Source of the DNA: Cheilinus undulatus
Lineage: Eukaryota > Chordata > Actinopteri > Labriformes > Labridae
DNA: 64,000 bases
Reading direction: 5' to 3'
NCBI RefSeq assembly: GCF_018320785.1
Contig: NC_054877.1
Coordinates: 37,470,151-37,534,150, forward strand
In this document: positions 1,359 to 60,638 of the stretch, in pieces
Numbering within the stretch: the first letter of the stretch is position 1
Layout of the letters: each line of letters starts with the position of its first letter
Notes under the pieces: model-generated
What the model was told of the DNA's origin: nothing
Databases searched by the model: none
Seen by the model: only the letters and a program-made list of their open reading frames with translations
Position numbers and translations under genes: made by a program

Positions 1359-4300
1359 TGAGGAACATTTGAGTGTTCAGTCAGTGAGCTTGGCCACAAT
1401 CAGAGGGGAGTTTGTCCTGTCATCTCCTGAAGCTGAAGGCATGGCAGCACTGATAGAGGAAAACCTGAAGGGGCTGAGACAGCGCTCGGTGTACGCTGTG
1501 GTGCAATATGATTCTGGTAAACAAGGTATGAGACCACAGCATGTACACCATGTATACGGTGTGGGATAGCAACCTCAAACACATGTACTGTTAAAGCAGT
1601 TTTAGGGCCAGACTTACTTTTTGTCCTTAAATCATCCTGATAAACATTTTTAGATCTTGAAATAAACATTACTTGATGGTGCCATTCTGTCAATCTAAAC
1701 TGTATATAACATGCTCTGATTGAACTTCAGTCACCAAATTTTGCCATGCATCATGTGGCCATGAAGTGTGAATCATGACCATTTTTTCATCAGCTTCTTT
1801 CTTTGATTAATTTCTACATTTGATATTTTTGGAGTATTTTTAAATGCACTGAATGTTCTTAAGATAACTAGGTCCACAAAAATTATTGAGATGGCTGGGT
1901 TCACCATGTAATTTTCTCAGCTTCAGTTTTTGCATATTCCTCAAATGCATAGCTTAAAAATCATGGACATCCTTACTCTCAAGCCGTGCAGTAAAAGTAC
2001 TTATTGCATTTTTTTCTGTGTTTTTCTTTCCCATTCTTCAGACGACCCAATGTTCCTAACATTTAAGCGTGGAGACCTGCTGCTGGTAGAAAAAGATGAA
2101 CATTATCCTCCCAAAGACAAGCTGATCAGGGCAACCAACCAGCGGACCAGCGACAGCGGAGTAGTTCATACGGACTCACTGCAGTTTCTGCCAACTCTCA
2201 GCAAACCCTCAGATGACATACTGGTAGAGTAACATAAATACCTCACACTTTGTAATGTAAAACTTGCTGAAAAGGACCACTTGACTGAAGAATGAGGTAG
2301 AACTCATGAAAAAAGTGCCATTAACTGCTGTAAAAGAATATTTCCCAGAAAAATTAAACACATAACCATTATAGGAATTATGCATAAAGGAATAAAGTGT
2401 AAGAAATTGAATTGAGGAAACTTTGAGCAGACATGAATCCATTCATATTGTTTGTACATCAATCTCCCATAATAACAAGTCATATCTGGTTGTTTACTCA
2501 AGATCTGGACTTTAAAACCTAGTTATCACATCATAATAATGCTCCTTTTCACATGATTACTTATTTCAGTCATGGCCACTTTGTCAAGAAACACTTTATT
2601 TGCAAGTAAAAATATTTTTCTTTATTAGCAGTTATTAATTTGCTCCTTTTGCCGTTTTTTATGATTGTGACTGTTCTGGGATGCCCCTTGTCCTTCTATG
2701 AGTCTGCGTGGAAAGCATCAAATACCACATTTTCCTGGCTTTCCTGTGCCTACAAGGAAAGCTTGAGGCAGGGAGAGAAGCAGAAAACCCCCCAGAGCAG
2801 AGCAGGCATCGGTGACAACAAAATTAGATTGATTAAGTCAGAGGCAGAACAAAGGAGGAGCTGGGATGGAGGAAGGTTGCAAAAAGCATGCAGAGGGGGC
2901 AGCAAAGCTTAACCAGGCTAAAACAGCTTAAATATGGCAGCATGAGTGCAACTAGCCAATGGCATGCTTAGGGCGAGCATGAGAGTCATGAGGGCTTGCG
3001 GGGGATCAGCTGATCTTAATTATATGGCAGCGCTTGAACTAACCCTATATGCTCAATTTTTAGTTGCCTTCGTGAGATCTTGATTTATTTTCTTGTAATG
3101 TCAGTAATACAAGGCTTGTTTTCTCTCAGTAATAACCTGGTTGCTCTGATAGGCCGACGAGGTCACTTCATGCTGCCATTACAACACTAAGTTCAGACTT
3201 TTCCTATGTTCCTTTGTAATTTTGCAACTCCAGGAATACAAGAAAAGTAAGTCAAGAGCTGAAGAAACAGGAAAAAACACTTAATCACAGTATGACAGAG
3301 TAAATGAAAAGTGTATTTATGTCTGTTACAGGTGTCTGTATATATACTTTCAATCAACATATAAAAAGATATAATACATTTAGTATTATAGATTTCACTT
3401 GAGACTTAAATCTGAGTATCCCAAGGAGCACAAACACCGGGTGTACTCTACACACATGAAACAAAGGTAGACTTCAGGTTCATGTATACAGCACTGTGAG
3501 ACAGTGACATGAGCTCTATCTTGTGGTAAAACTAATGAACTGCCTCTGACCAAACAGGAGCTGCTCATTCCAGGTTCAAAGATAACTTCAGCAGCACAAA
3601 GTGCTCCACAGAGAGAGGAAACAATGGCCCCTGTTTCTCTTAAAGAGTTTGCAATGGAGAACTTCAGGTAAAGTTATTATATTAGTCTTTTTGATTGATG
3701 ATAGTGTGATCAGACTCTTCTAAGCATTGCTATTATGCCGCTTTATCTGTTTTTCAATAAAATTCAAGTTATTTTGGATGTTTTAAAGACAAAAAAGCCA
3801 TGAATAACTCTGCTTGCCCTATGTGTCACAGGCCTGCAGGTAAAGATGCGGGTCGGCAGGGTGTGGGCCGAGCGGCCAGCAGGGAGAAGTTGTGGGCTTG
3901 TTCGAAAGAACCCCTCAAACAGCCACTGATGAGGAACCTCGTACGCAACTCTGAACTCAGCAGCCTGGCCTGCAACGCCTTCACTGATATCCTTTAAAAT
4001 GCACAATCCTGGTTTAAAGGAATAGACATCTTTCAGAGTTAAGGCCTGTTTGACTTTACTTTAACTATTTTGGGTTATCAATGCACATGTGGATCTCAGC
4101 GTTTAAATTTCTTTATTAGCTGAACATTTCTAATGTCCTGCCCCAAACTTTAATCTCATATTGTTTTATCCACAACACTGCAAGTATGGATGAGGATTGC
4201 TGTTGATGATTTGGTATCAAACTTGCTACTGAAGTTTATCAACAACAACAGATGCACTTGCAACTTTTTAACACTGTTGCATAAGAGGCTCCATATTCAC

Positions 4301-7300
4301 ATGAGACAGAGCCTCTCAACAAATACATGCACAGCAGGGATGCACCAGCAGATGTCTCACTGTGTGTGTTCTTCTCTGGGGAGCATGTGAGTTGAGTCTG
4401 CTTATAACAGCCCTGCAAGGGAACAAAGAGCATTATCGAGTTGTTGGCTTACTGTTTCTCAACTGGTAGGGCATCAGGACCCACCACCACCTCCCTGTAA
4501 GAAATTGCAACTGATTTTTTTTTCAAATTTTCAACCACAAAATTGTATAAAATGAAAAATATTGATGTATCTCACAGTAATACCTCAGCGACAAGTCCAA
4601 GGTACAGTTTTTATTCTGGTGTCAAGAAAATAAATGAAAAAAAACAACAACAAAGAAGACTTGGAAAAAGTGACATCTGCATTTATCAAACAACAGTTGC
4701 ACATTGCATTGTCAGCACATCACCACGACATTTACAATATCGTTAAATCTCTAATGATGGACCTTAGATGGAACAAGACATGACTGAACCAATAGACCAC
4801 ACAAAAAAGACCTTTTCAAAAGCGCATAGTTACAGAAGGGCGTACATGTATCCATATTATTTGATCTCCTTTCCTGTGATAATATGGACATTTGATTAGT
4901 CAGTTTAATTGGTACTATTAGTAGTAGTCATTTCTCAGTGAATTACCCCATCATCTTCATAAACTGTCCTCATATCAAAGGAAAACAAAAAGAGTAGATG
5001 TGTGTTTAGTTTTCCATGAGTTTATCACTTGTGAATTGGGACCTTGTACTGGTGACAGATTGTCCAAAAGGGGATGGCAAATAGACATAGGCTTTATATG
5101 TAAGATGCAAAGATTATAGATCCATCTTTATTTAGACTCGAATAGTAAATTATAACACAAAGACGACATCCTGCAGTACCCTCATTGACCACAAGGGGGC
5201 CACGGCCCACATTTTTGGAGTCACTGCTGTAAACCAGTGGTACCCAAATGATGTGTCGAGGCACACTGGTGTGCCTTGAGAAATAAAGACTGCAAATATG
5301 CAACAACTAGAGATACTGTTGCACATGTTAATGCGACTATTCAAAAATTGAAACTCTTTCTGCTGGGCCTTTCTTTGGTAGATGAAAATAGGTTCAAGCC
5401 CACCTGCACACATCAACACATAAATATACTGTATATCAATACTTTTAAAAAACTATCTTAAACAATTAAGATGGGGCAAAGGGAAGGTGTGTCTCTTTCT
5501 TTCATACCTGTTGTCTTAGCTGAGGATAAGACATGACTTTGTTTTAGTGGTTGTGACATCTACTGTAGATTTGTTCTTGACCCCACATTTACCTTTAAGT
5601 CTTTTCTCAGAATTTGCCGGGCTTTACTAGCAGTGCAAAACAATGCACAAGGTCTTATTTAGCCTTAGTGAGCCTTGCTGATAACTTCAGGCACAACTTT
5701 GGGAATCACTAGTCTAATCTGTTACTTTTATTTTAAGATATTTTTGGGGGGTGTTTTGTCTTCATGTTTGGCAGAACAGCTGGAGAGAGAGAGGGAATTT
5801 GGGGGGCTAGAGTGGGGGAGGACATGCACCAAACATTACCTGGATTACCAGGTAATATGGGCACCTGCTCTCACAACTGTGCCAGACCGGCACCCTCTGC
5901 TACTTTTCCTATGTGTAGATTTTTTTCCCAAACATCAAACAGTTTGTAATGTGTGCTTTTTATTTTTAAAAAAAATGTATCCCTTATAATTTTGTGTTTT
6001 GAATACATAGTTTGAATTTTTTTTATTCGTGTTCCATACATAGAATCATATGCCTAGCCCACATGGGCTTACCTGACACCAATATATGTGGGATCATGTA
6101 TGTGTTTCAGCCACACAAACATATGTAGGAACCTACCTGCTGTTGTCCTTAACCTTTTCTGCCACCCATCCTTAAGTACATGGGTGACTACCCTATCAAA
6201 CAAGCTCGCACTCCTCTGGAGCTCACTGACCAGATCTTTGGTCCAGCCACACAGCATGAAGATCTGCAGGATGAGATCTACTGTCAGATCATGAGACAGA
6301 TGACTGGGAACACCAGCATGTACTCACACAGTCTTTTTCTACATTTCAAAAAGAATTCACGTTTAAATTAAACGAACATTTCTAATCCTCTATGAATTAT
6401 TGTTTATCAGGTTGAGTGTGGAGCGAGGCTGGCAGCTGATGTGGCTGTGTACAGGTTTGTTCCCACCTAGTCAAATGTTGATGAGACACACTCAGCGCTT
6501 CCTGGAGTCTCGACCAAAAGAACAGCTGTCTTTAGACTGTCTGCACAGGCTGAAGGCGATGCTCAGGTCAGCATGGAGTTTGACATAGAAATAATAAATG
6601 ATCAGATTTAATGACATGACAGTAAAGTCCTCCCACCATATGAACCAGTGACTATATATAAAGGTGGACAATGCATCTCTAGCTCCCCCCAAGGTACACA
6701 AGTAAAGCCAAAACACCCCCATCAAAAATGCTGACATATTGTGGTAGTGACATCATTTTTAGCCATAGTTTGTACAATGGAGCTGTATTATTGATGTTCT
6801 GTACCTACCTATAAATTGTAAAAAATAATCAGTCATGATGCTATGTCCCATTAAAATTAAGTTAAACTTCCCATTGGGTCATAAATCCGTATTAAATAAT
6901 AATTGACGAAAAGAAACAGTAATGTGAGAAAAATGTGTGGGAGCTGTAAATGTTTTGGTTTCACATTTGGGAGCTGACATGCCATCCATCTTTTATCATA
7001 TTCAAAGGTATATTCTTTAGTTTCATTTAGTGATATTCAGGGTACACTCACAGCTTAATATTTACCCTAAAATTGTTGGACCTATGAGTATTTCATGTAA
7101 AATCAGTCATTCAATTAAAAAAAAAACTGATGCCAAGACAGATTTTTACTTTAAGACTCAAGCATGGTCAAGCTTGATGAACTTGTTTCCATTAATAAAA
7201 GGAGAGAATGTGTACTTATGTGTATTTTTGATAAAGTAATATTGATGTTTTTCTTTGTGCCCTCAGTAAGGAGCCCAGGAAGCTTCCTCCCCACATGGTA

Positions 7301-10300
7301 GAAGTGGAAGCCATCCAGCAGAACAGCTCCCAGATCTTCCACAAAATCCACTTCCCAAATGACACTGACGCTGTAAGACAAACAAACGTCTGTAAAGATG
7401 AGATATCCATTTATGTCAGAACTTTAGGGCAATGCATCTTCACTGGTGTCACCATTTGATTTAATTAGAATTACACTGTCTACTATTCAATTTGATACAC
7501 AGTGCCTCCTCCGTTTTCTGCATGACTGCACATTAGTGGTGTTGAAAATAACACTTTCTATTTTTTCCATTGCTGTCTCTTAAATCACTGTCTGTGTTTT
7601 GATGCAGATATTTGAGGTGTCATCGACGACCACAATCAAAGAGTTGTGCTTCACTATCGCCTCTCTGCTAAAACTTGGCTCAACTGAAGGATACGGCTTA
7701 TATCTGAAAACACAACACAAGGTGAGAGTTTGGTGACATTCCTGCTGTATTTTTATTCTTCAGATTTTGTTGAATTTAACCTTAAATTACGTTGTAACAT
7801 AATTAAAACATTTACAAGTGTCCGTTTGATTTGTACAAATACAGACTCTTAGAAATACAGAGTTATGAACAGGACAATGCTTCTTTTCCATCTGACATGT
7901 TTGGTTTGGATTCTCAGGTCTCAAGTATGGAGGAGGACAAATATTTCTTTGACAGCTTAAGGCAAACTTCAGATGCTCCGAAGAAAGCTAAAAAAGGCAG
8001 AGAAGGTAATGAATCATGGGGAAACTTCATATCTTGATATCAATTTAACTCCATATTTACAATTCAAATTTTGTTTCCCAGGCTCCCAGACCAACATACC
8101 ATACCAGGTGCTCTTCAGGAGGAAGCTCTGGTTCAATGTGAGCCCAGAGAAAGACCTGATTGCAGACCTAAACTTCCATTTCCCACAGGTATTCAACTAA
8201 ACACCCTTAATTCTGATCTATTTTCTCTTTCTAAACACACAACATCATGGTGATGCATGACTTCTGTTTTTTCTTCCTACAGGAACAGCCTAAGTACCTG
8301 AAAGGGTACCACACCTGCTCCAAAGAGGACATGATCAAGCTGGCCGGGCTGCTCTTCAGAACTCAGGTGGATTCAGACAGGTCACAGTTTGTCATGATCC
8401 CCAAAATGTTAAAGCATTTGGTTCCTGCTGACCAGATCAAACTCATGTCACCAGATGAATGGAAGAAGGTAGCAAAGGATCTTTATAGAAATTATGTAGC
8501 GTCCAGTGTAATGGATATCCACTGACTTTTAGTCATCTTTTCTTCTTGCAGCATATCATCTCCTCCTACAACAAGCAGAGCGGGATCACTGTGGATGAGG
8601 CCAAAATCGCCTTCCTGAAAACCATTTCAAGCTGGCCGACCTTCGGCTGTGCCTTCTTTGAAGTCAAAGTGAGTCACAAAGATTAAAAATACTGCTTATT
8701 CTGTTTATTACCAATTGGGAAAACTGTTTATTTATATTACATTTTAATTTGACTTTGCAGCAAACATGTGAATACAGCTACCCAAATATACTACGGATTG
8801 CTGTCAGCAAGCAAGGTGTGAGCTTGATAGACCCAGAGACAAAGGTATGCGCCGAGATAAGCCTTAAAATTAATACTTTAAAGTCCTGTGATCAGTTTTT
8901 TGCTGGCTATGAAACAATCTGAAGTCATTGCCGTTGCCTCTTATTAAGCTACAAAAGCAAACAGGCCATCAGCAATTAGACTGATTGTATCTGAATAGTT
9001 ATTTTGATGCTTGCCCTCCAAGGAACCCATCAGTCTTTTAGTTTTCCTCCGCCAATATTTGCAATGGGTAAAGCATTTGACTGTAAAAAAAAAAAAGAAG
9101 CAGATGAGGCACCTTTATAAATTTCATGGACTCAACACGGCTTTGTCTGCTGGGCCTGTCATAATCGATATAACCTGAAAAATCTTCTTTGGAGCTGTGA
9201 TTACAGCCTTAGGAGCAGTGGCAGAAGTGTTAGATATACAGGGCTTAGCCCAAACTTTGGAGGGTCCAAGGGCATGCTTCCCCAGAAATGCTCTGCTTTT
9301 TAGGCAATGTTGATAAATGTGAAATTGAATAGATGCATTGAAATAAAATAAGAAGGTCAACAATGAATAGATAAGTAAATACCATAGATTCAAAAGCACT
9401 TTGATCCAGTGCAGAGTGTCAGGTTATAATATGGACGTGTCATATTTTTTCTGTTAGGATCTTTTCATACTCTCATATTTGTGTTAGGGTAATTGTGCAT
9501 AAATCTATGCAGCTTCATGTGGATTGATCATACTGTGAACATTTCAGGAGTTGCTGGTCATGCACCAGTTTAGCCGCATCACAGACTACCAGAGCAAAGG
9601 AAATACTTTCCAGATGACCATCCGAACACTGGTGAATACTGTCAACTTCGTCTGTGAAACCACACAGGTGAGAGGCTTTCGGTCATGTTTCTTGCAGAAG
9701 AAGTCCCTGAAACTTTGTTTTAAAATTAGTCTGAGCCGATCACTCACTCTGATTGTAGTAATTTTCCTTAAACCATCTGATTTTAAAATTAAATCTTACT
9801 CTTTAAATCCATAGTATAAAAAAAATCCTTAAAAGAAAAAATAGGAACTCAGCTGACATCACATGTATAACAACACTGTTAAGACAATTATATTATTTCA
9901 GAATAAAATGAAAACACAAGAGAGAAAAATAATACATATCTGTTTTTCTAAAGGTTATATTTCCCGACACCAATGAGTGTTTCTTCTTTTATTAACTTTA
10001 TTGACATTGAAAATGAGTTGGGAAAATAAGTTAAAAGCGTGTGACCCACACAAACATCTAATTACATGTTACAGCTGATTGCATATTTAAAAAATGCATG
10101 CTCAGTTTCATCTTTTAATGTATCAAATGATGCCTTTTAAAGCTTTAATTGGCTCAATTAATTTGCAAAAGAGAATACATTTCTTAAAGGATGATGATGA
10201 GAGCTTATAGACTGGATGTATCAAATATTACACACACCTTAAATGCCTGCTGAATCTTTAAAAAACACAATTTGGCATGGTTTTACCATTTATAGGCATC

Positions 10301-10742
10301 AGAATATAATGGAAATGTATGCTGGCTTTATCCTCTATTTATTACTGTTATATATAAGCACAATTTGAATTTTTTTTATTGCATTATTACTTTTGAAAAT
10401 TGAAAATATACACAAAAACCCTAGTTTCAGTTGATTGAAGATAGCATTTTTGATGTGGCATACAAAGTTACTATGATGCGTGTCTTCAGCTCCCTGTTGG
10501 ATTATCTCTCCATGGCATGAATCTGAATTTATTCATCGGATTACACAGGACAAAAATGTCTCATTGTGGATGCCGAGGTCTGAAAACGTGCATCAAATAT
10601 AATGTATGTGTCTTTATAAAATGACAACATTTCTCTCCTTTTTCAGGCCAAAACAATGGTGGACCTTCTCAGGTCATACGTCAGCATGTACGAGAGGCAG
10701 AGGGAGACTTTTCAGCCGAGGAACCACATGATTTTCTTTTGA
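1359..10742 (+). CDS. Unconventional myosin VII-like, 3' part of gene (end of FERM1, SH3, MyTH4, FERM2)
   Basis: Class VII myosins are actin motors whose tail binds cargo and adaptor proteins in stereocilia and microvilli. Exons as I read them: 1359-1525, 2042-2223, 3558-3667, 3832-3986, 6166-6319, 6411-6566, 7267-7372, 7608-7721, 7918-8005, 8082-8188, 8283-8468, 8552-8668, 8761-8844, 9548-9667, 10647-10742 (TGA). They join without a frame break into 646 residues. The first exon ends the first FERM domain, the second is SH3-like, about residues 138-310 are MyTH4 (motifs [17 protein letters not shown] and KYMGDYP) and about 315-646 are FERM ([24 protein letters not shown]). These motifs match remembered MYO7A/MYO7B tails closely. 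The motor, IQ and first MyTH4 parts lie upstream; the AG at positions 1-2 followed by GTAAAG may be the end of the preceding exon and has the right phase. The intron after 3986 is AT-AC. The 7A/7B paralogue is unresolved; 7B is possible because the C-terminus is divergent. Confidence 0.9.
3987..6165 (+). other. U12-type AT-AC intron in the myosin VII-like gene
   Basis: No GT donor follows the MyTH4 exon, but ATATCCTTT sits at 3987-3995 and matches the U12 AT-AC donor consensus at every base. Near the other end TCCTTAAC at 6146-6153 is the consensus U12 branch site, and the intron ends in CAC at 6163-6165, about 13 nt after the branch adenosine. Splicing here yields [12 protein letters not shown] across the junction, like [12 protein letters not shown] in MYO7A. 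Reading through instead gives FTDIL and a stop. Confidence 0.85.
5235..5711. mobile_element. Non-autonomous hAT-like element (MITE)
   Basis: The left end CAGTGGTACCCAAA and the right end TTTGGGAATCACTA form terminal inverted repeats of the hAT (YARNG) type. The flanking 8-mers CTGTAAAC and GTCTAATC agree at 5 of 8 places, as expected for an aged target duplication. No transposase is present. It lies inside the U12-type intron of the myosin gene. Confidence 0.6.
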
Positions 10743-13801: not shown

Positions 13802-38660
<24,859 letters not shown>

Positions 38661-43555: not shown

Positions 43556-45070
43556 CAGTTGAGGATGAAATTATTAGCCCCTCTATGACAATTTCATTTA
43601 AATAAAGTATTTCCCACAGAGTAAGGGGTTTTTAACACGGCTTCTCCAAACATCCTTGTTCAATTTTGGATGTTTATGTTATTTTACTTTGCACACCAGA
43701 GTCTAAATCATAAGCCCCCTAATGCTAATAGTCAGTCGTGTCTCCTTTTTGCTGTATAACAGCCTGCAGTCGTTTGTTGCAGTTTTCAACAAGTTTCAGT
43801 CACTTCTGAGGAATCCCAGCCCATTTTCCTTTGGACAATCTCTCAGCCTCCTCCAGATTGGTCTTCTGGCATGGACCTTCGTCTTCAGTTCAGATTTTCA
43901 ATGGGATTCAAGTCAGAGATTTGTGTAGGCCAGTCAGTTACTTTCACTGTAGTCTTCTGGAGGTAGTTCTTCATCAGGAGCCTCGTATGTTTCAGATCAT
44001 TGCTATGTTGGAAGACAAAGCGATAACCCAAATCCAGTTGTGCTGCTGACTGCTTGAGGTTTTCCTCCCAAATCTTCAAATATCCTTCTTTCTTCATGGT
44101 CCATCTCTATAAGATTCCCAGGTCCAGATACACTGAAGCATCCCCACAGCATAATACTCCCACCACTGTTTCACTGTGGGGGCAGTGTTCTGTGGGTGAT
44201 ACGCCTCTACGTTCTTTCTCCAAACATCAGCATTGTCTCCTTGGCCAAAGAGCTCTAGTTTAGTTTCATCTGACCAAAGGACGCACGTCTGGTATGCAAA
44301 ATCATTCTTCAGATTGTCCTTAGCATTCTTCAGTCTGGCTTGAAGGTGTCTCTTCTGCAGAAGTGGAGGTTTTCTTGGTCCATTCCTGTACAGGGCTCTA
44401 GTGATGGTCTTCTTTGAGTCTACAATTCCTGACTTGGCTAAGTCATTCACTAGTGTCTCAGTTGTTCTGGGGTCTTTAGCCACATCCCTTACCAGTTTTC
44501 TTTCCAGAGTCTTTGAAATCTTTCTCTCTCTAGCTCTGCCAGGCTTGTTCTGGACTGTGTGGCTCTCTTTGAGTTTCTTGATTATAGTTCTCACTCCAGT
44601 TCATGACCCTGGAAATTCTGTGATAACTTTGTAGATCCTTCTCCGGCTTTGTGAACATCATCAATCTTTTTTTCTCAAGTTTAAACTGATTTCTTTTGTT
44701 TTTTTGCTGTGATGCTTTCTCCAGTGACAGCTCAAACCTTCAGAGGATTTTAAACTGTGCGTAAATAAAAGAAAACCCTCAGTTTTAACTTGATTTGACA
44801 AGCTTTAAGCATTGCAAAGTTAAAAAACATCATTACACAACAGTGATTTGTGCTACAACTCAATAAAAAGGTCAGCTCTAAAGGGGGGTGAATGAGTTTG
44901 ACCCTGGGGGTTTTTGTGTTCATAATTTTGTTTCTGTGTGCAAAGTAAAATAATGTAAGTTTCCAAAATAAGCCTAGGATGTTTGGAAAAGTTGTTAAAA
45001 AATCTTGAAATACAAAGATAAAATAATGGAGAAAAAAAACCAATAATCTGTGGGAATGATAAGAAAACTG
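43556..45070 (-). mobile_element. Tc1-like transposon of a second family, with broken transposase
   Basis: The end at 43556 (CAGTTGAGGATGAAATTATT after TA) is intact, but the other end is worn away near 45070. Inverted repeats are still visible as TTTTTAAC, CTCCAAACATCC and TTATTTTACTTTGCACAC at about 43627-43700 and their inverse at about 44930-45000. Reading on the minus strand, 44594-44094 encodes the DNA-binding part and SDETKLELFG. A frameshifted piece at 44097-43885 has QHSNDLKHT, where the catalytic aspartate of DNDPKHT is serine, and SDLNPIENL. It is therefore inactive. It sits downstream of gorasp2. Confidence 0.8.
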
Positions 45071-52200: not shown

Positions 52201-55200
52201 AGTGATTAAAAAAAAAGACAGTGCTTTTCTCTTTCAATACAGCATCTTCATTTATAAATATTCCTCTCTCTTTTTTATCCTTAGCCTTTATGCGTACTGG
52301 CTACTCTTAACATGACAATCAGACGGATATGTTAGCTAATGCTTTATTTTCTCAGACGATTTTTGTGAATTCATGGCTCCTTTTTGGCAGGATAACAGGC
52401 TATCTGAGGTAACAAGGCATTTAACTAAAAGGATATAATTCTGCTACCTCCAATTAAAACAGAAGGGAAACACAAAATAGTTTAAGTGAATTAACTTGGT
52501 TTCTTTTTGGTCGAATACTGAAGGATTTCCGATGTATTTGTGATGAGGGGGACATAGCCAGCCTAATATTTGTTTAAACAAACAAAATATAAAATTTAGA
52601 AGTATTGTGTGTAGTTATCACATTAAAAATAATGTTACAATGGTTTAAGTGTGATAAATTTGTGCCAGCAAAACAAACAGATGCTGAAGAAAAAGTAGCA
52701 CATGGATGACTGAAATATGAAGAAACAACCGCGTAAACCAGGGGTGTCAAAGTCAAGGCATGGGGGCCTAAACCGGCCTGTAGTTTAGCTATACCCAGCC
52801 TGCAAGATAAAATCATATCTTTACTATAACTGGTCCATTGTTATGAGGTCTGCAGACTTCCTCCAGTATAAAAATGTCAATTTAACATTGGTGACTTAAA
52901 ATATCCTTCTTAAGTTGTAAAAATGTTATAATGTAAAGAGTAAAAATAATTAGATAAAAAGTCAACAATATAGGAAAAGACATTAATTTGTATTTTCATT
53001 GTTTGACTTTTGTTTCATATAGTGATCTTTTAAACTCATGCTTTCGACTTTCTATCTCATATGTAAATGCTTTCTAAAAACATTATTTTGATTTTTAATT
53101 CACATTTTGACTTTTTTATTTCAAATTTTGAACCTTTAAGCTGACATTTTTTAAATCTCAAAAGCATTAACATCAGTACCAAGTTATTTCCCCCTCCATA
53201 ATTCATTACTGGTGATAATTAGGTTGACAGTTTGTGGTTTTATGATGACCCTGTTAGGCTCTCAGGTTAGACCCAAGTTCAGAATCCGGTCACTGCTGTG
53301 ACTGAGTTTGACTCCTCTGATCTAGACCTTTATAGTAACCCAAAACTTCTAACTCAGTTTCAGATTCATCACTGATCAACTGGGTTTATGCGTCTTCTGA
53401 TCCTACTTTGTGTACTTGAAATCAGGTCCATATGTTGTCAGGAAACTCAATTCATGGCCTCATAGCAGTGTCTATGGTCCACTGCGTCTTTAACAAACTG
53501 TATGGGTCTCCATCGAGCCAAAATACCCCCAATTTAAGCAGATATTAGTCTGTTTTAAAAGTGACATCAGTGCATACCCTCTATTTGGGTTCCTAAATTT
53601 TGCCAATGTGTTTATGATAAAGGTGCAGCAAATTGTGCGGCCATATTTGTGACAGCAGACATAAGCTGCATTTGCAACACTGACATATTACCTTCAGATA
53701 GAGATTTATTGTGTTCTCTAGTAAATGAACAAAAGCTATGTTTCTGTTCTGTTTCGCTCCTCAAGCTTAACTGAAGCAACTTCATTCATCACTAAACATT
53801 AGCAGAGCTGTTTTTAAGCGTTCTTTGCTCAGTGATGTATACATCCTCAAGCATATGCATAGGACAAACAAAACAGATGCCATCTCAAAGAAAACAGCTT
53901 CATAGCATCAGAGAGATCAGAAAGCCAGTGGAGCCTGAAGCTGATGTGACAAATTTGTCAGCAAAAAGCTACTTACTACAGATATAGACATTATGTGGCC
54001 ACATTATGACACAATCTATCAATCAATCTCACAATTTTGTTTAAATTCAATAATGAAATCTTTATGGTAACGGTTCTACAGCTCCAAACAAAAATCTACT
54101 TTATGGTTAAATCCAGAAAAAAATGACATCCTTCCCGTTAGAAATCATAAGTTCAGTGTGATCACAAGGGTGGTGTGAGATGTGAACAAGTGTGTATCAT
54201 TCTGTTCATCTCTCTAAAACCCCAAACTTAAGGACTTTTCTGCTTAAACAGAATTAAAAAAACTTTAATGTGCTTGTTACCTGCCCTCTCCTCCCCACGC
54301 ACTGTTCGGTGTGATGATCACTTCTCTGCAGTTATCGGTGTCTGTGTTGTAGACGTAGAGTTTCAGGCCTTTCCCCTCATGGCTCTCTATCAGAGAGAAC
54401 AGATCCTCTGACTGCAGATAAAGACACAACAAGGAGAAAGAGGAGAACGAAACAAGAGAAAACACAATCACTATCACTGTTATCAGCTGGAGAGTGTGCA
54501 GCAGTGACACTTTCAAGGATCTTGAGTGCAGATTAACAACCTCATTCATAACAGTGTCGGCTCCAATGATGTAGTCTGTGTGTGGCCGCAAGCCAGCCAA
54601 AGCAGCTGGGGAATTAGGCTCCACTTCCTGTTAGAGAGAGAGGGAGAGTTAGTGCACAAAGTGACACTAGACCACTTTAAAACAGTAATAAAGCTCAGGG
54701 CTACTCACCAGCACATGCCAAACATTCTCATTGGCTCCCTCAAAGCTGCAGAAACGAATGGAGACGCCGAGCAAGCCCTGACCCCCCCACAGGTTACTGG
54801 GGGTGACTGTGGACTCTCGCAGCTCCAGGGTCTTTGAGGAGTAAACCAGCATCTTAACTGGTTTCTCCACGCTGGCTTTCAGCAGGTCTTTCAGGGTGTC
54901 ATTGTCTTTGTTCTGCAGAGAAGAGAGAAGGAAGCACAGAGAGGCAAGCATGACATGCAGTTTGTTCTGGCCTCTGTTAAGTGCAGCCAGACACCAAGGC
55001 AAAACAAATTAAATAATACATATCAGGATAAAATGAGGATACAACTGAATATTTTGTGATGTAGAGGAATCTGTGAGCGAGGCAGTTTATATCTACCCCT
55101 TTTGATCTAGGTTGGGGTTCATTCATTTAAGTGAAAAAGTCAAATTACTGCAGACATATTGCAACATTTCCTGCTAGTAGTGTTTCAAACTCAACACAAA

Positions 55201-57289
55201 TTAAAACACTGTCACAAAACTTTGAATCTAAAATTGAAGTCGATTAAGTTTGTACAGATTAATGCAGTATGAGAAATCATAAAGTGTTGATACTTGAGGG
55301 TAGACATCTTTTCTTACACAAAAACTGACTGATTGTGTTTTATGAACATGTCATATAGGCAGAGTGCTCAACCTGCTTCACAAGAAACCAAAAACGCAGC
55401 TGCAACAGTCCAAAAATTCATTCCTTAGTAGCATGTTGCTCTTACAGGTCAGTCTTACTTCCTTTTCTTACAGATTTTGCCTACATCCTGCCACATCCAA
55501 CCAGAAGAAATGAGCACTAATGAAAAGTATTTAACATCCCTTATGTCATCATAGATCGGTCATCTTAACAAAGTAAGACCATACATCATGGGACAATCAG
55601 TTTTGTAGTTTTGGTTCAGACACCCTACATCTAAAGACCCTTTCATTTTCTCTGTGTGCATAGGAAACATTATGATCTTAATCTCAGCAATATTACAGAG
55701 TAGCATTTTTTAAATGAATGACATAATATTCAAGTTAAATGCAGAGTTCAACAAACTGAAATCTAAATCACAGATGGTGTCTTTCCTTACCAGTCTGGTG
55801 TTGTTTATGGAGACGATGAAGTCAAAGAAAGGCTCTAGTCCTGCACGGTGTCCAGGTGAGTTCTCCTGAACCTGCAAAAAACAGGAGAGACAGTCTGAGC
55901 TGCTGCTGTTATACATGCTGCTGCCTTCTGCCATCACTGATGGTTGTTTAGCCAATTCAGTGAAAAGGATGACTGTGAAATATGCTCATCAGAATTTCTT
56001 TTTCTTAAGGTACTGCAGCCGTAGAACTGCTCTAGGTGGGTTGACACAGGCGAAATTACAACTAGCAGTGCTGCTGGCGCTGTTATGGAGGAGCACCAAG
56101 CTTACCACTGTGGGCATCATGCAAGATGGATGCTTGCTTCTGGGCAATGTGAGATGATAGTACACTGGCAATTGAGGCTAAACAAAGTGGCAGAGGTCAT
56201 TTATTATGAGTGAAATAAAAGCTGTAACAATTTGATAGCAATTGAAAGGCAAGTTGCAGAATTTTGAGGTGAAAACCTTCCTTTTGTTACTGCTGGATTT
56301 TTTTAAATGAATGGAACAAAACATCTGACATTTAATTGAGGCTGTCACAATGATTATTGAATGTTGTTTTAGTCTATGTTGTGGTTTCACTGGAGAGTCA
56401 GCCTTAACATTACACTAAGGATTGCTGACTTGTGCTGAATGAGAGTCTATATCATTCAGGGGATGGGGCTGGAGCATTTTTTATGATGCAGAGGGGAAGA
56501 AATTGTTCTGGTGATAGGATATCATGATGGACCACAGCCTCTTGACTCAGGGGAGGGTCTCAAATCGTCTGTGCCAATGGTGAGGGGGCTCCAGGGTCAT
56601 GTAGAGATGGTAGATTAAAAACATCTCAACATCTCTAATTTATAAACGAAATGCAACATACAAATCTCAGTTGTGTGCATTTCCTTCATGAGAGGCAGGA
56701 CACAAACACAAGGAGAATCGTTCTTTTTGATGTCTAGAAAACCAGTCAAGCTTCAAGCTAACGTTACCAACACTTAAACTTTGTGAAACTATAGGATAAC
56801 ATTTTTTAATTGGATAACTGACCAATAGGTATTCCGTGTTAGATTGACTGGATGAGCGTCAAAAGTCGCAGAACAAAGGAGAATAATCACTGTTTGTTTG
56901 TGTTTGCATTCCCATTTGAGCAGCTGTCATCCAGTGCAGCTACTTAGCTTCAGCTAGCTAGGCTGCAGCAGTGATGGTTAGCTTGTTAGCAGCAACCTTT
57001 AAAGCATACGAGCAGTAAATAACAGAAAAGTGACGTTAACCAACGTGGGGCTATCTATCACTATTCTACAGCACAACACATTTTCCGGACATGGTGTTTG
57101 TGTTTTCCAGACGGAGGCCTCAACGGTCATCCCCGGCCTCTCGTCATCACTCAGAGCTGGGAATCCGCTTCTGACTCAATGCTAAGCTAACAGCTAACAC
57201 CAAGCTGTAGCAGATTAAAAACTCACCCGGAGGACGTGGTAGCCCTCTGACCCTCCGCCCGGTATCTCCACGCTCTGTGCTCCTCCCAT
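46285..57289 (-). CDS. gorasp2: Golgi reassembly-stacking protein 2 (GRASP55), complete, 10 exons
   Basis: GRASP55 tethers medial/trans Golgi cisternae through homotypic contacts of its two PDZ-like GRASP domains. Exons in transcript order: 57289-57227, 55871-55791, 54912-54709, 54627-54541, 54411-54281, 51334-51202, 50740-50617, 50528-50421, 48722-48597, 46556-46285. They total 1329 nt, giving 442 residues (human about 452). The start [13 protein letters not shown] keeps Gly2, the myristoylation site known for the family. GRASP domain 1 has [18 protein letters not shown] and domain 2 has [20 protein letters not shown] and [20 protein letters not shown]. The C-terminal half is a long proline-, serine- and threonine-rich tail, the usual phosphoregulatory SPR region. 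TGLSIS, NPATT and LMPLPAGLP match GORASP2 rather than GORASP1. The intron 4 donor (GAG|GTTGTT) is weak; the other introns are ordinary GT-AG. It faces tlk1 tail to tail. Confidence 0.97.
46557..48596. other. gorasp2 intron 9
   Basis: Intron between the last two gorasp2 exons. It carries a 127-bp MITE (47644-47770) and, near 46735-46800, a worn fragment with repeated AGTAGCTCACC/AGTAGATCACC motifs like those in degraded fish DNA transposons. Nothing coding is recognised. Confidence 0.5.
47644..47770. mobile_element. Small MITE with inverted repeats
   Basis: The left AAAGGTCACATATTTTAC and the inverse of the right end, AAGGTCACATATTATGC, pair over about 17 bp around a 127-bp unit. TTAA flanks the left end; the right flank is diverged. 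Superfamily is uncertain. Confidence 0.6.
49495..49939. mobile_element. Non-autonomous hAT-like element
   Basis: The ends TAGAGATTTT and AAAACTCTA are inverted and of YARNG type. The flanking 8-mers GTAAATAC (49487-49494) and GTGAATAC (49940-49947) agree at 7 of 8. It lies in gorasp2 intron 8. The left interior carries a palindromic GGTATCGG/CCGATACC block. Confidence 0.65.
50168..50255 (-). repeat. Common teleost interspersed repeat fragment, minus copy
   Basis: CTACATCCTGCCTCTCGCC, GATCGACTCC and GATAATGGATAGATGG are the reverse-oriented counterpart of the 42091-42180 repeat. It lies in gorasp2 intron 8. Confidence 0.45.
51335..54280. other. gorasp2 intron 5
   Basis: The longest gorasp2 intron (2946 nt). 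It contains the hAT-like element at 52739-53319. Apart from that I see only AT-rich sequence without supported exons. Confidence 0.5.
52739..53319. mobile_element. Non-autonomous hAT-like element
   Basis: The left CAGGGGTGTCAAAGTCA and the inverse of the right end, CAGAGGAGTCAAACTCA, match at 14 of 17 places. The flanks GCGTAAAC and ATCTAGAC share only part of an 8-bp duplication, consistent with age. No transposase frame. It lies in gorasp2 intron 5. Confidence 0.65.
55872..57226. other. gorasp2 intron 1
   Basis: No exon was recognised. The stretch near 56455-56600 (GATGGACCACAGCCTCTTG, GGGGAGGGTCTC) looks like an old repeat fragment of unknown class. CpG content rises toward exon 1. Confidence 0.4.
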
Positions 57290-59033: not shown

Positions 59034-60638
59034 CAATGATGTGAAAAAGTATTTGCCCCCTCTCTGATTCCTGATGTTGTTGCATATTTGTCACATTGAG
59101 ATGTTTTGGATCGTCCAACCAATTTTAATATCTCAGAAAGACAACCCAAGTAAATACAAAATGCAGTGTCTGAATGATTATTTAATTTTTCAAGGGAGGA
59201 AAAAAATCAAAACCTATCTGGCCCTGTGTGAAAAAGTAATTGCCCCCCTTGTTAAATCATGAGCTAACTGTTATTAACCACAGTTCTTGGAAAGCTGCGT
59301 TCAACTTCACTGGCCACACCCAGGTCTGATTATCGCCAGATTTGTTGAATCCAGAAATCACTTAAATAGAAGCTGTCAGACAAAGTGAAGTGGGCTACAA
59401 GATCTCAAAGAGAAATGCATCATGCCACGATCCAAGGAAATTCAAGAACAAATGAGAAACAAAGTGACTGAAATCTATCAGTCTGGAAAAGGTTACAAAG
59501 GCATTTCCAAGGTTTTGGGGCTCCAGCGAACCACAGTCAGAGCCATTATCCACAAATGGAGAAAACTGGGAACAATGGTTATCCTTCCCAGGAGTGGTCA
59601 GCCAACCAAAATTACGAGTGCAACAACGACTCATCCAGGAGGTCCCAAAAGAACCCAGAATGACATCCAAAGAACTGCAGGCCTCACTGGCCTCAGTTAA
59701 AGTCAGAATCCATGACTCAACCATTAGAAAGACACTGGGCAAAAATGGCATCCATGGGAGAGTTCTAAGGCCAAAACCACTGCTGGCAATAAACAACACA
59801 AAGGCTCGTCTCACATTTGCCAAGAAACATCTTAATGATCCCCAAGACTTGTGGAGAAATATTCTGTGGACTGACGAGACAAAAGCTGAACTTTTTGGGA
59901 GGTGTGCAGCCCGTTACATCTGGCGTAAAAAATAACACAGCATTTGATAAAAAGATCATCATGCCAACAGTCAAACATGGTGGTGGCAGTGTGATGGTCT
60001 AGGGCTGCTTTGCTGCTTCAGGACCTGGACCACTTGCAGTGATTGATGGAGCAATGAATTCTGTTGTCTATCAGAAAATCCTGAAGGGGGGCGCCCGGCC
60101 ATCAGTTGTGCCCTTAAGCTCAAGCAGGACAACGACCTGAAAAATACCAGCAAGTCCACCTCTAAATGGCTCATAAAAACAAAATTAAGGTTTTGGAGTG
60201 GCCAAGTCAAAGTCTGGACCTAAATGCAACTGAGATGCTGTGGTGTGACCTGAAACGGGCAGTTCATCCTGTGAAACCCACCAACATGGCTGAGTTAAAG
60301 CAATGCTGCAAAGAAGAGTGTGCCAAAATTCCTCCACAGTGATGGGAAAGAATCATCACCAGTTATCACAAACGCTTGATTTCAGTTATTGCTGCCAACG
60401 GTGGCACAACCAGTTATTAGGTTCAGGGGACAATTACTTTTTCCCATAGAGCCAGATAGGTTTGTATTTTTTCCCCCCTTAAGAAATGAAATAATCATTC
60501 AGACACTGCATTTTCTATTTACTTGGGTTGTCTTTGCTAGATATCAAAATTCATTTGATGATCCGAAACATTTCAATGTGATAAAAATGCAAAAACATCA
60601 GGAATCAGAGAAGGGGCAAATACCTTTTCACTGCACTG
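59034..60638 (+). mobile_element. Tc1-like transposon, copy B (same family as copy A)
   Basis: Complete 1605-bp element between TA dinucleotides (59032-59033 and 60639-60640), with inverted ends CAATGATGTGAAAAAGTATT and the inverse of AATACCTTTTCACTGCACTG. The transposase begins at 59422 (MPRSKEIQEQMRNKVTEI). It is intact through the helix-turn-helix region, shifts frame near 59600-59700, and keeps WTDETKAELFG before running into stops and shifts after 59935. The second acidic site is damaged. It is a pseudogene. Comparison with copy A reveals the LINE insertion in the latter. Confidence 0.87.

Follow-up and report, generated by a model that had tools for sequence, protein, structure and literature searches.

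The stretch analysed here, referred to throughout as the window, comprises 64,000 nucleotides of the 1.17-Gb genome of Cheilinus undulatus (contig NC_054877.1; C13:37470151-37534150), and its first part encodes the C-terminal tail of a class VII myosin. Two exons of this tail are separated by an intron with AT-AC ends which is almost certainly of the minor (U12-type) class, old, and conserved in class VII myosins from before the separation of MYO7A and MYO7B. That such an intron lies here was the substance of the original prediction, made from the letters of the window, and it is borne out by the splice signals, by a comparison of 54 possible joins and by identity with the NCBI protein P0121. 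The intron is of a known kind, and its conservation is wider than could be seen at that stage. The features concerned are collected in Table 1.

The host gene

The stop-free tail of 646 residues assembled from the window matches residues 1530-2175 of P0121, from the same species, at 646 of 646 positions. The best protein structure (PDB) chains for the tail were MYO7B (547.7 bits) and MYO7A (542.5 bits), and many of the close fish homologues carry the name Myosin VIIBb, on which ground we assign the gene to the MYO7B type. The class VII host originally proposed is therefore correct and can be refined to MYO7B-type, though NCBI names P0121 'unconventional myosin-VIIa-like'. Pfam matches in the tail were to FERM_C1_MyoVII, MyTH4, RA_2, FERM_M and IRS, with no SH3 match in the same scan; judged by a C-terminal FERM-SH3-MyTH4-FERM arrangement and closest similarity to MYO7, the protein belongs to class VII (MYO7B-type). 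The motor domain lies outside the window and is present in P0121 as PF00063. The placing in a MyTH4 exon pair can be made more precise: the AT-AC junction falls at tail residue 205, inside the aligned MyTH4-FERM region of solved structures and 21 residues before the start of the Pfam MyTH4 match (226-323).

Table 1. Features of the class VII myosin tail in the window, its AT-AC intron, and the corresponding introns of three paralogues
Feature	Position	Strand	Remarks
Class VII myosin C-terminal tail (MYO7B-type)	1360..10742	+	15 exons from first full codon at 1360; 646 aa identical to P0121; end of first FERM, linker (resembling SH3 by look only), second MyTH4-FERM, TGA stop 10740-10742
Upstream exon	3832..3986	+	3' end AAC GCC TTC ACT G; phase 1, first base of split Ala codon; identical in P0121
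U12-type AT-AC intron	3987..6165	+	2179 nt; signals, join test, same-codon AT-AC introns in three paralogues
U12-type 5' splice site	3987..3995	+	ATATCCTTT; 9/9 consensus positions
U12-type branch site	6146..6153	+	TCCTTAAC; 8/8 consensus positions; 12 nt to 3' splice site, without AG between
3' splice site, terminal AC	6164..6165	+	CAC; intron end GCCAC; from sequence
Downstream exon	6166..6319	+	begins CC ATC CTT AAG TAC ATG GGT GAC TAC; A-ILKYMGDY
Paralogue AT-AC intron	C7:40347927-40349389		1463 nt; ATATCCTCC donor, branch TTCTTGAC +10 nt
Paralogue AT-AC intron	C2:49778589-49778847		259 nt; ATATCTTTT donor, branch TCCTTGAC +11 nt
Paralogue AT-AC intron	C12:40540478-40540597		120 nt; ATATCCTTT donor, branch TCCTTGAC +11 nt

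Splice signals and the joined protein

As marks of the U12 class we took a donor of the form [AG]TATCCTTT, a branch site TCCTTRAY situated approximately 8-20 nt from the 3' splice site, AT-AC or GT-AG ends, a conserved position, and the lack of a long polypyrimidine tract beyond the branch site. Here donor, branch site and AT-AC ends all occur at the junction that keeps the protein, at a position conserved in the paralogues, and the perfect fit claimed for donor and branch site is confirmed at every consensus position. As to the polypyrimidine tract, the 12 nt that follow the branch site read CTTTTCTGCCAC, and pyrimidines make up 77% of the last 30 nt. The intron, which splits an Ala codon (G/CC) in the second MyTH4 region, ends 12 nt past the branch motif (CTTTTCTGCCAC); counted from the second A of the motif, the distance to the end of the terminal CAC is the 13 nt originally given. 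The remaining 13 introns of the tail are all GT-AG, with best matches of 5/9 to the donor and 6/8 to the branch consensus. The next intron (6320-6410) has an unusual donor, CAT/GTACTC, yet is GT-AG, and its join matches P0121.

The plus strand of the window contains one copy of ATATCCTTT and the minus strand two (0.39 expected per strand); for TCCTTAAC the numbers are two and none (1.1 expected per strand). Either motif alone is unremarkable; their combination at one exon junction is not, and a crude, after-the-fact estimate puts the chance of a donor with a well-placed branch site at a single exon junction at about 1e-9.

Stop-free, in-frame GT-AG, GC-AG, AT-AC and AT-AG joins were compared for exon ends within 3880-4099 and exon starts within 6040-6269. 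Only 3986/6166 gave the full product of 102 residues among the 54 open joins tested, and to that extent it is, as had been claimed, the sole splice that restores the protein. The longest GT-AG product (3940/6177) was 19 residues shorter, the longest GC-AG product (3976/6177) 7 and the AT-AG join 3988/6177 3, whilst reading on past 3986 without splicing leads to a TAA at 3995. Aligned with the four solved C-terminal MYO7B/MYO7A chains displayed, the joined protein needed no gap at the junction; the MYO7B segment reads FVAILRYMGDYP. The hexamer ATCCTT stands both in the donor (3989-3994) and at the start of the downstream exon (6168-6173), with the consequence that reading through the donor yields D-I-L where A-I-L stands. 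Inspection of the sequence indicates that a D-I-L-K-Y-M-G-D product made by joining through this common hexamer requires unrecognised terminal dinucleotides.

We then compared public gene models at this codon. The homologue set held 342 distinct proteins, drawn from overlapping lists of the best 120 of 203, of 2858 and of 456 above threshold; it is not a census, and includes invertebrates and multiple models per species. Models were classed by regular expression, 24 of the 342 having a missing or poor flank and being kept in the denominators. Source classes were transcribed manually from result tables, and an earlier rule applied to the first 240 proteins gave other numbers. Exact joins were found in 38/42 contig open reading frames (ORFs; lgn, jgi, ena, merc), none of which carried D-I-L, in 134/209 NCBI/nr models, in 6/90 UniRef-only models and in 0/1 from eukprot. 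Thirty-one proteins fell into a residual 'skip_or_other' class, among which P0295, P0296, P0304 and P0317 look continuous by eye. The join is exact in all four ORFs of 1840-2164 residues found on contigs of 6.3-6.9 kb (P0165, P0195, P0199 and P0224), contigs which, given the many introns of such genes, we regard as spliced transcripts.

Single species illustrate the problem: Mastacembelus armatus has one correct model (P0137) and two that are broken (P0008, P0196), and the same division is seen in Dicentrarchus labrax (P0129; P0232, P0234, P0235), Hippocampus comes (P0179; P0011, P0213) and Monopterus albus (P0176; P0012, P0219), whilst all four of the listed Scophthalmus maximus models taken as this gene (P0005, P0050, P0139, P0239) are broken. 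A gap at the AT-AC junction was present in 105/260 genome-derived models compared with 0/37 contig ORFs, and 19 genome-derived models start there, mostly at the Met of MGDYP, compared with 3 summed over the 13 other junctions. Some of these data weigh against our interpretation. Four other junctions are also gapped in genome-derived models (41/176, 64/177, 44/130 and 70/281), contig ORFs are gapped at three of those four (4/18, 7/16 and 8/39; 0/10 at the fourth), and one contig ORF, P0104, starts at the AT-AC junction itself. Since gaps are frequent elsewhere, a count of gaps does not by itself single out this junction. The suspicion that existing annotations may be wrong is therefore justified for many models, the UniRef-only entries among them, and not for the window gene, whose NCBI model is correct.

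Some of these models bear on whether a nearby GT-AG or GC-AG intron, such as 3940/6177 or 3976/6177, could be the real one, leaving a protein 19 or 7 residues shorter. Such joins are in frame, and a product of this kind, 'ACNYMGDYP', appears in P0010, P0015, P0130, P0140 and P0194. The residues that they remove are nevertheless found in the four solved chains and in 38 of 42 contig ORFs, and other models from the same species are exact (Labrus bergylta P0122, Echeneis naucrates P0154, Seriola lalandi P0134). We rejected these joins for their loss of conserved residues, and consider it very improbable that one of them is the true intron.

Conservation in paralogues and traces in other species

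A genome search with the MyTH4 segment located three paralogues, which were assigned to class VII from their exon sequence. Counting the window gene, four class VII myosin genes were thus detected in the genome, and each has an AT-AC intron that splits the same Ala codon in the same phase. The paralogue signals are not all perfect: two donors and one branch site, out of three each, deviate from the full consensus. The C7 gene is MYO7B-like, with 73% identity over the downstream exon, and the C2 and C12 genes read as MYO7A-like (SFIAVMKYMGDYPSKRTR, AFLAVMKYMGDYPSKRVR). By the look of its translation, the AT-AC intron of the C7 gene (L024) seems to hold a piece of a Tc1-like transposase. In the first MyTH4 regions of the C2, C12 and C7 genes the exon is continuous by eye, with no intron at the homologous site, and none was seen by eye at that site in two further MyTH4 genes (L027 and L032); the first-MyTH4 exon of the window gene was not found within the stretch fetched. 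The idea that the intron is a general feature of MyTH4 regions was rejected on the basis of these uninterrupted sites in this genome.

The major spliceosome removes some AT-AC introns, which tells against the minor-class reading, and U2-type removal of the intron at 3987-6165 would also be in keeping with the 77% pyrimidine content of its last 30 nt. Set against this are the full U12 fit of donor and branch site and the recurrence of a branch motif, TCCTTGAC in two paralogues and TTCTTGAC in one, 10-11 nt from the intron end. We give splicing by the U2 machinery only a slight chance. That the motifs match by chance and the intron is of another kind, for which one can cite the roughly 0.4-1.1 expected occurrences of each motif alone per 64-kb strand, is a negligible prospect given their joint placement at an exon junction, their presence in four genes and the traces in other vertebrates described below.

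If a U12-type intron stood at this codon in other species, then faulty gene models might be expected to carry traces of it. Reading through an AT-type U12 donor (G/AT ATC CTT) gives D-I-L, and if the intron ends in C, reading through its acceptor produces CCC (Pro) in place of GCC (Ala). D-I-L stood at the donor position in 63 of the 342 homologues, 27 of them MYO7A-like and 36 MYO7B or other as divided by a 70% identity cut to bird MYO7A. Of the 40 models that read through the acceptor, 35 have Pro instead of Ala, this class being one not chosen for Pro as such which takes in models failing the exact rule; Ala stands in 163 of 178 exact joins, a share that holds among the letters allowed by a rule that excludes Pro and Asp at the split codon. 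The MYO7A models with D-I-L include sturgeon (P0241), bichir (P0337), teleosts and birds, and those of MYO7B include fishes, snakes (P0054, P0333), a lizard (P0338), tuatara (P0063), owl (P0067), pigeon (P0331) and goat (P0072). A lamprey protein (P0289) carries an acceptor trace, VLDGTA[P]VLKYMGD, which fits an intron with an AC end and, 10 nt before it, a branch site of the TCCTTGAC type. Several observations do not sit easily with this interpretation: a residue other than Pro (R, D, L, G and S) stands in five of the 40 acceptor read-throughs, the D-I-L class is defined by its letters and others occur (D-I-P in P0228, Y-I-L in P0311), and P0161 shows an apparent alternative join.

From these protein letters it would appear that the intron is present at the same position in MYO7A and MYO7B of other vertebrates, with traces in MYO7A of fishes and birds and in MYO7B of fishes, reptiles, birds and goat, and the lamprey trace suggests that it was already there before lampreys and jawed vertebrates split. 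No read-through trace was seen in mammalian MYO7A among the listed proteins. The exon numbering of human MYO7A near this codon (c.5326/5327), for which literature searches turned up no paper, was not used as evidence.

Neighbouring features and biological meaning

Elsewhere in the window, a GRASP55/65 PDZ-like domain (PF04495) was matched within 54280-54630 on the minus strand, where there is on this evidence probably a gene for a Golgi stacking protein; 54670-55985 on the same strand lies nearby. Tc1-like transposase pieces at 44097-44600 (minus strand) and 59468-59932 (plus strand) both gave PF01498 matches, and a third at 26165-26763 (plus strand) is one by look only, the part tried giving no Pfam match. 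Kinase-like exon pieces at 31401-38657 (plus strand), two of which were tried and gave no Pfam match, may resemble a tousled-like kinase. A search of viral contigs found no relative, and an Rfam scan of the window gave no family at gathering score. Outside the window, a tandem array whose unit recurs approximately every 45 bases at C1:1347678-1353360 holds many ATATCCTTT copies among the matches listed.

In minor introns the donor and branch site are recognised jointly by U11/U12, and U4atac/U6atac together with U5 complete the catalytic core. Its splice signals suggest that the intron at 3987-6165 uses, and would depend upon, this machinery. U11 would pair with ATATCCTTT and U12 with TCCTTAAC, the bulged A in the U12-paired branch site would attack the donor, and U6atac would take the place of U11 before the exons are joined at 3986/6166, forming the Ala codon G/CC in the second MyTH4 region. 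Minor introns are often spliced slowly and so this one may, by analogy, limit myosin VII output.

With its AT-AC ends, ATATCCTTT donor and a TCCTTRAC branch site near the 3' end, the intron resembles U12-type AT-AC introns in general. Among the papers listed in literature searches, none was concerned, to judge by title or abstract, with MYO7A or MYO7B as hosts of a minor intron, and its listing in a U12 catalogue or supplement is quite possible. Minor introns of voltage-gated Na+ and Ca2+ channel genes are named in PMC8767276; in contrast to those, the present one is hosted by the second MyTH4 region of a class VII myosin. Another likeness is to Myo10, also a MyTH4-FERM myosin, which PMC6558932 names as a minor-intron gene; the resemblance is that both genes encode MyTH4-FERM myosins and carry a minor intron.

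The analysis exposes a recurrent annotation fault, in that many public class VII myosin models are truncated or misjoined at this codon. More broadly, we regard it as evenly balanced whether every class VII myosin of vertebrates, among them the Usher syndrome gene MYO7A, has kept one AT-AC U12 intron in the second MyTH4 region since before lampreys and jawed vertebrates split, such that stereocilia and brush-border myosin depends for its supply upon the minor spliceosome. If human MYO7A has the same intron, then variants nearby would need to be judged by U12 rules and not by those for GT-AG introns. The intron itself connects the minor spliceosome, in a way that can be tested, with myosins of sensory hairs and microvilli, being present in genes of both the MYO7A and the MYO7B type. 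PMC5493754 places Myo7a in stereocilia and Myo7b in microvilli, and according to PMC9604452 the minor-spliceosome protein Rnpc3 is needed for the regeneration of neuromast hair cells in zebrafish. If the proposition is true, the dependence of myosin VII supply on the minor spliceosome could be one reason for that need.

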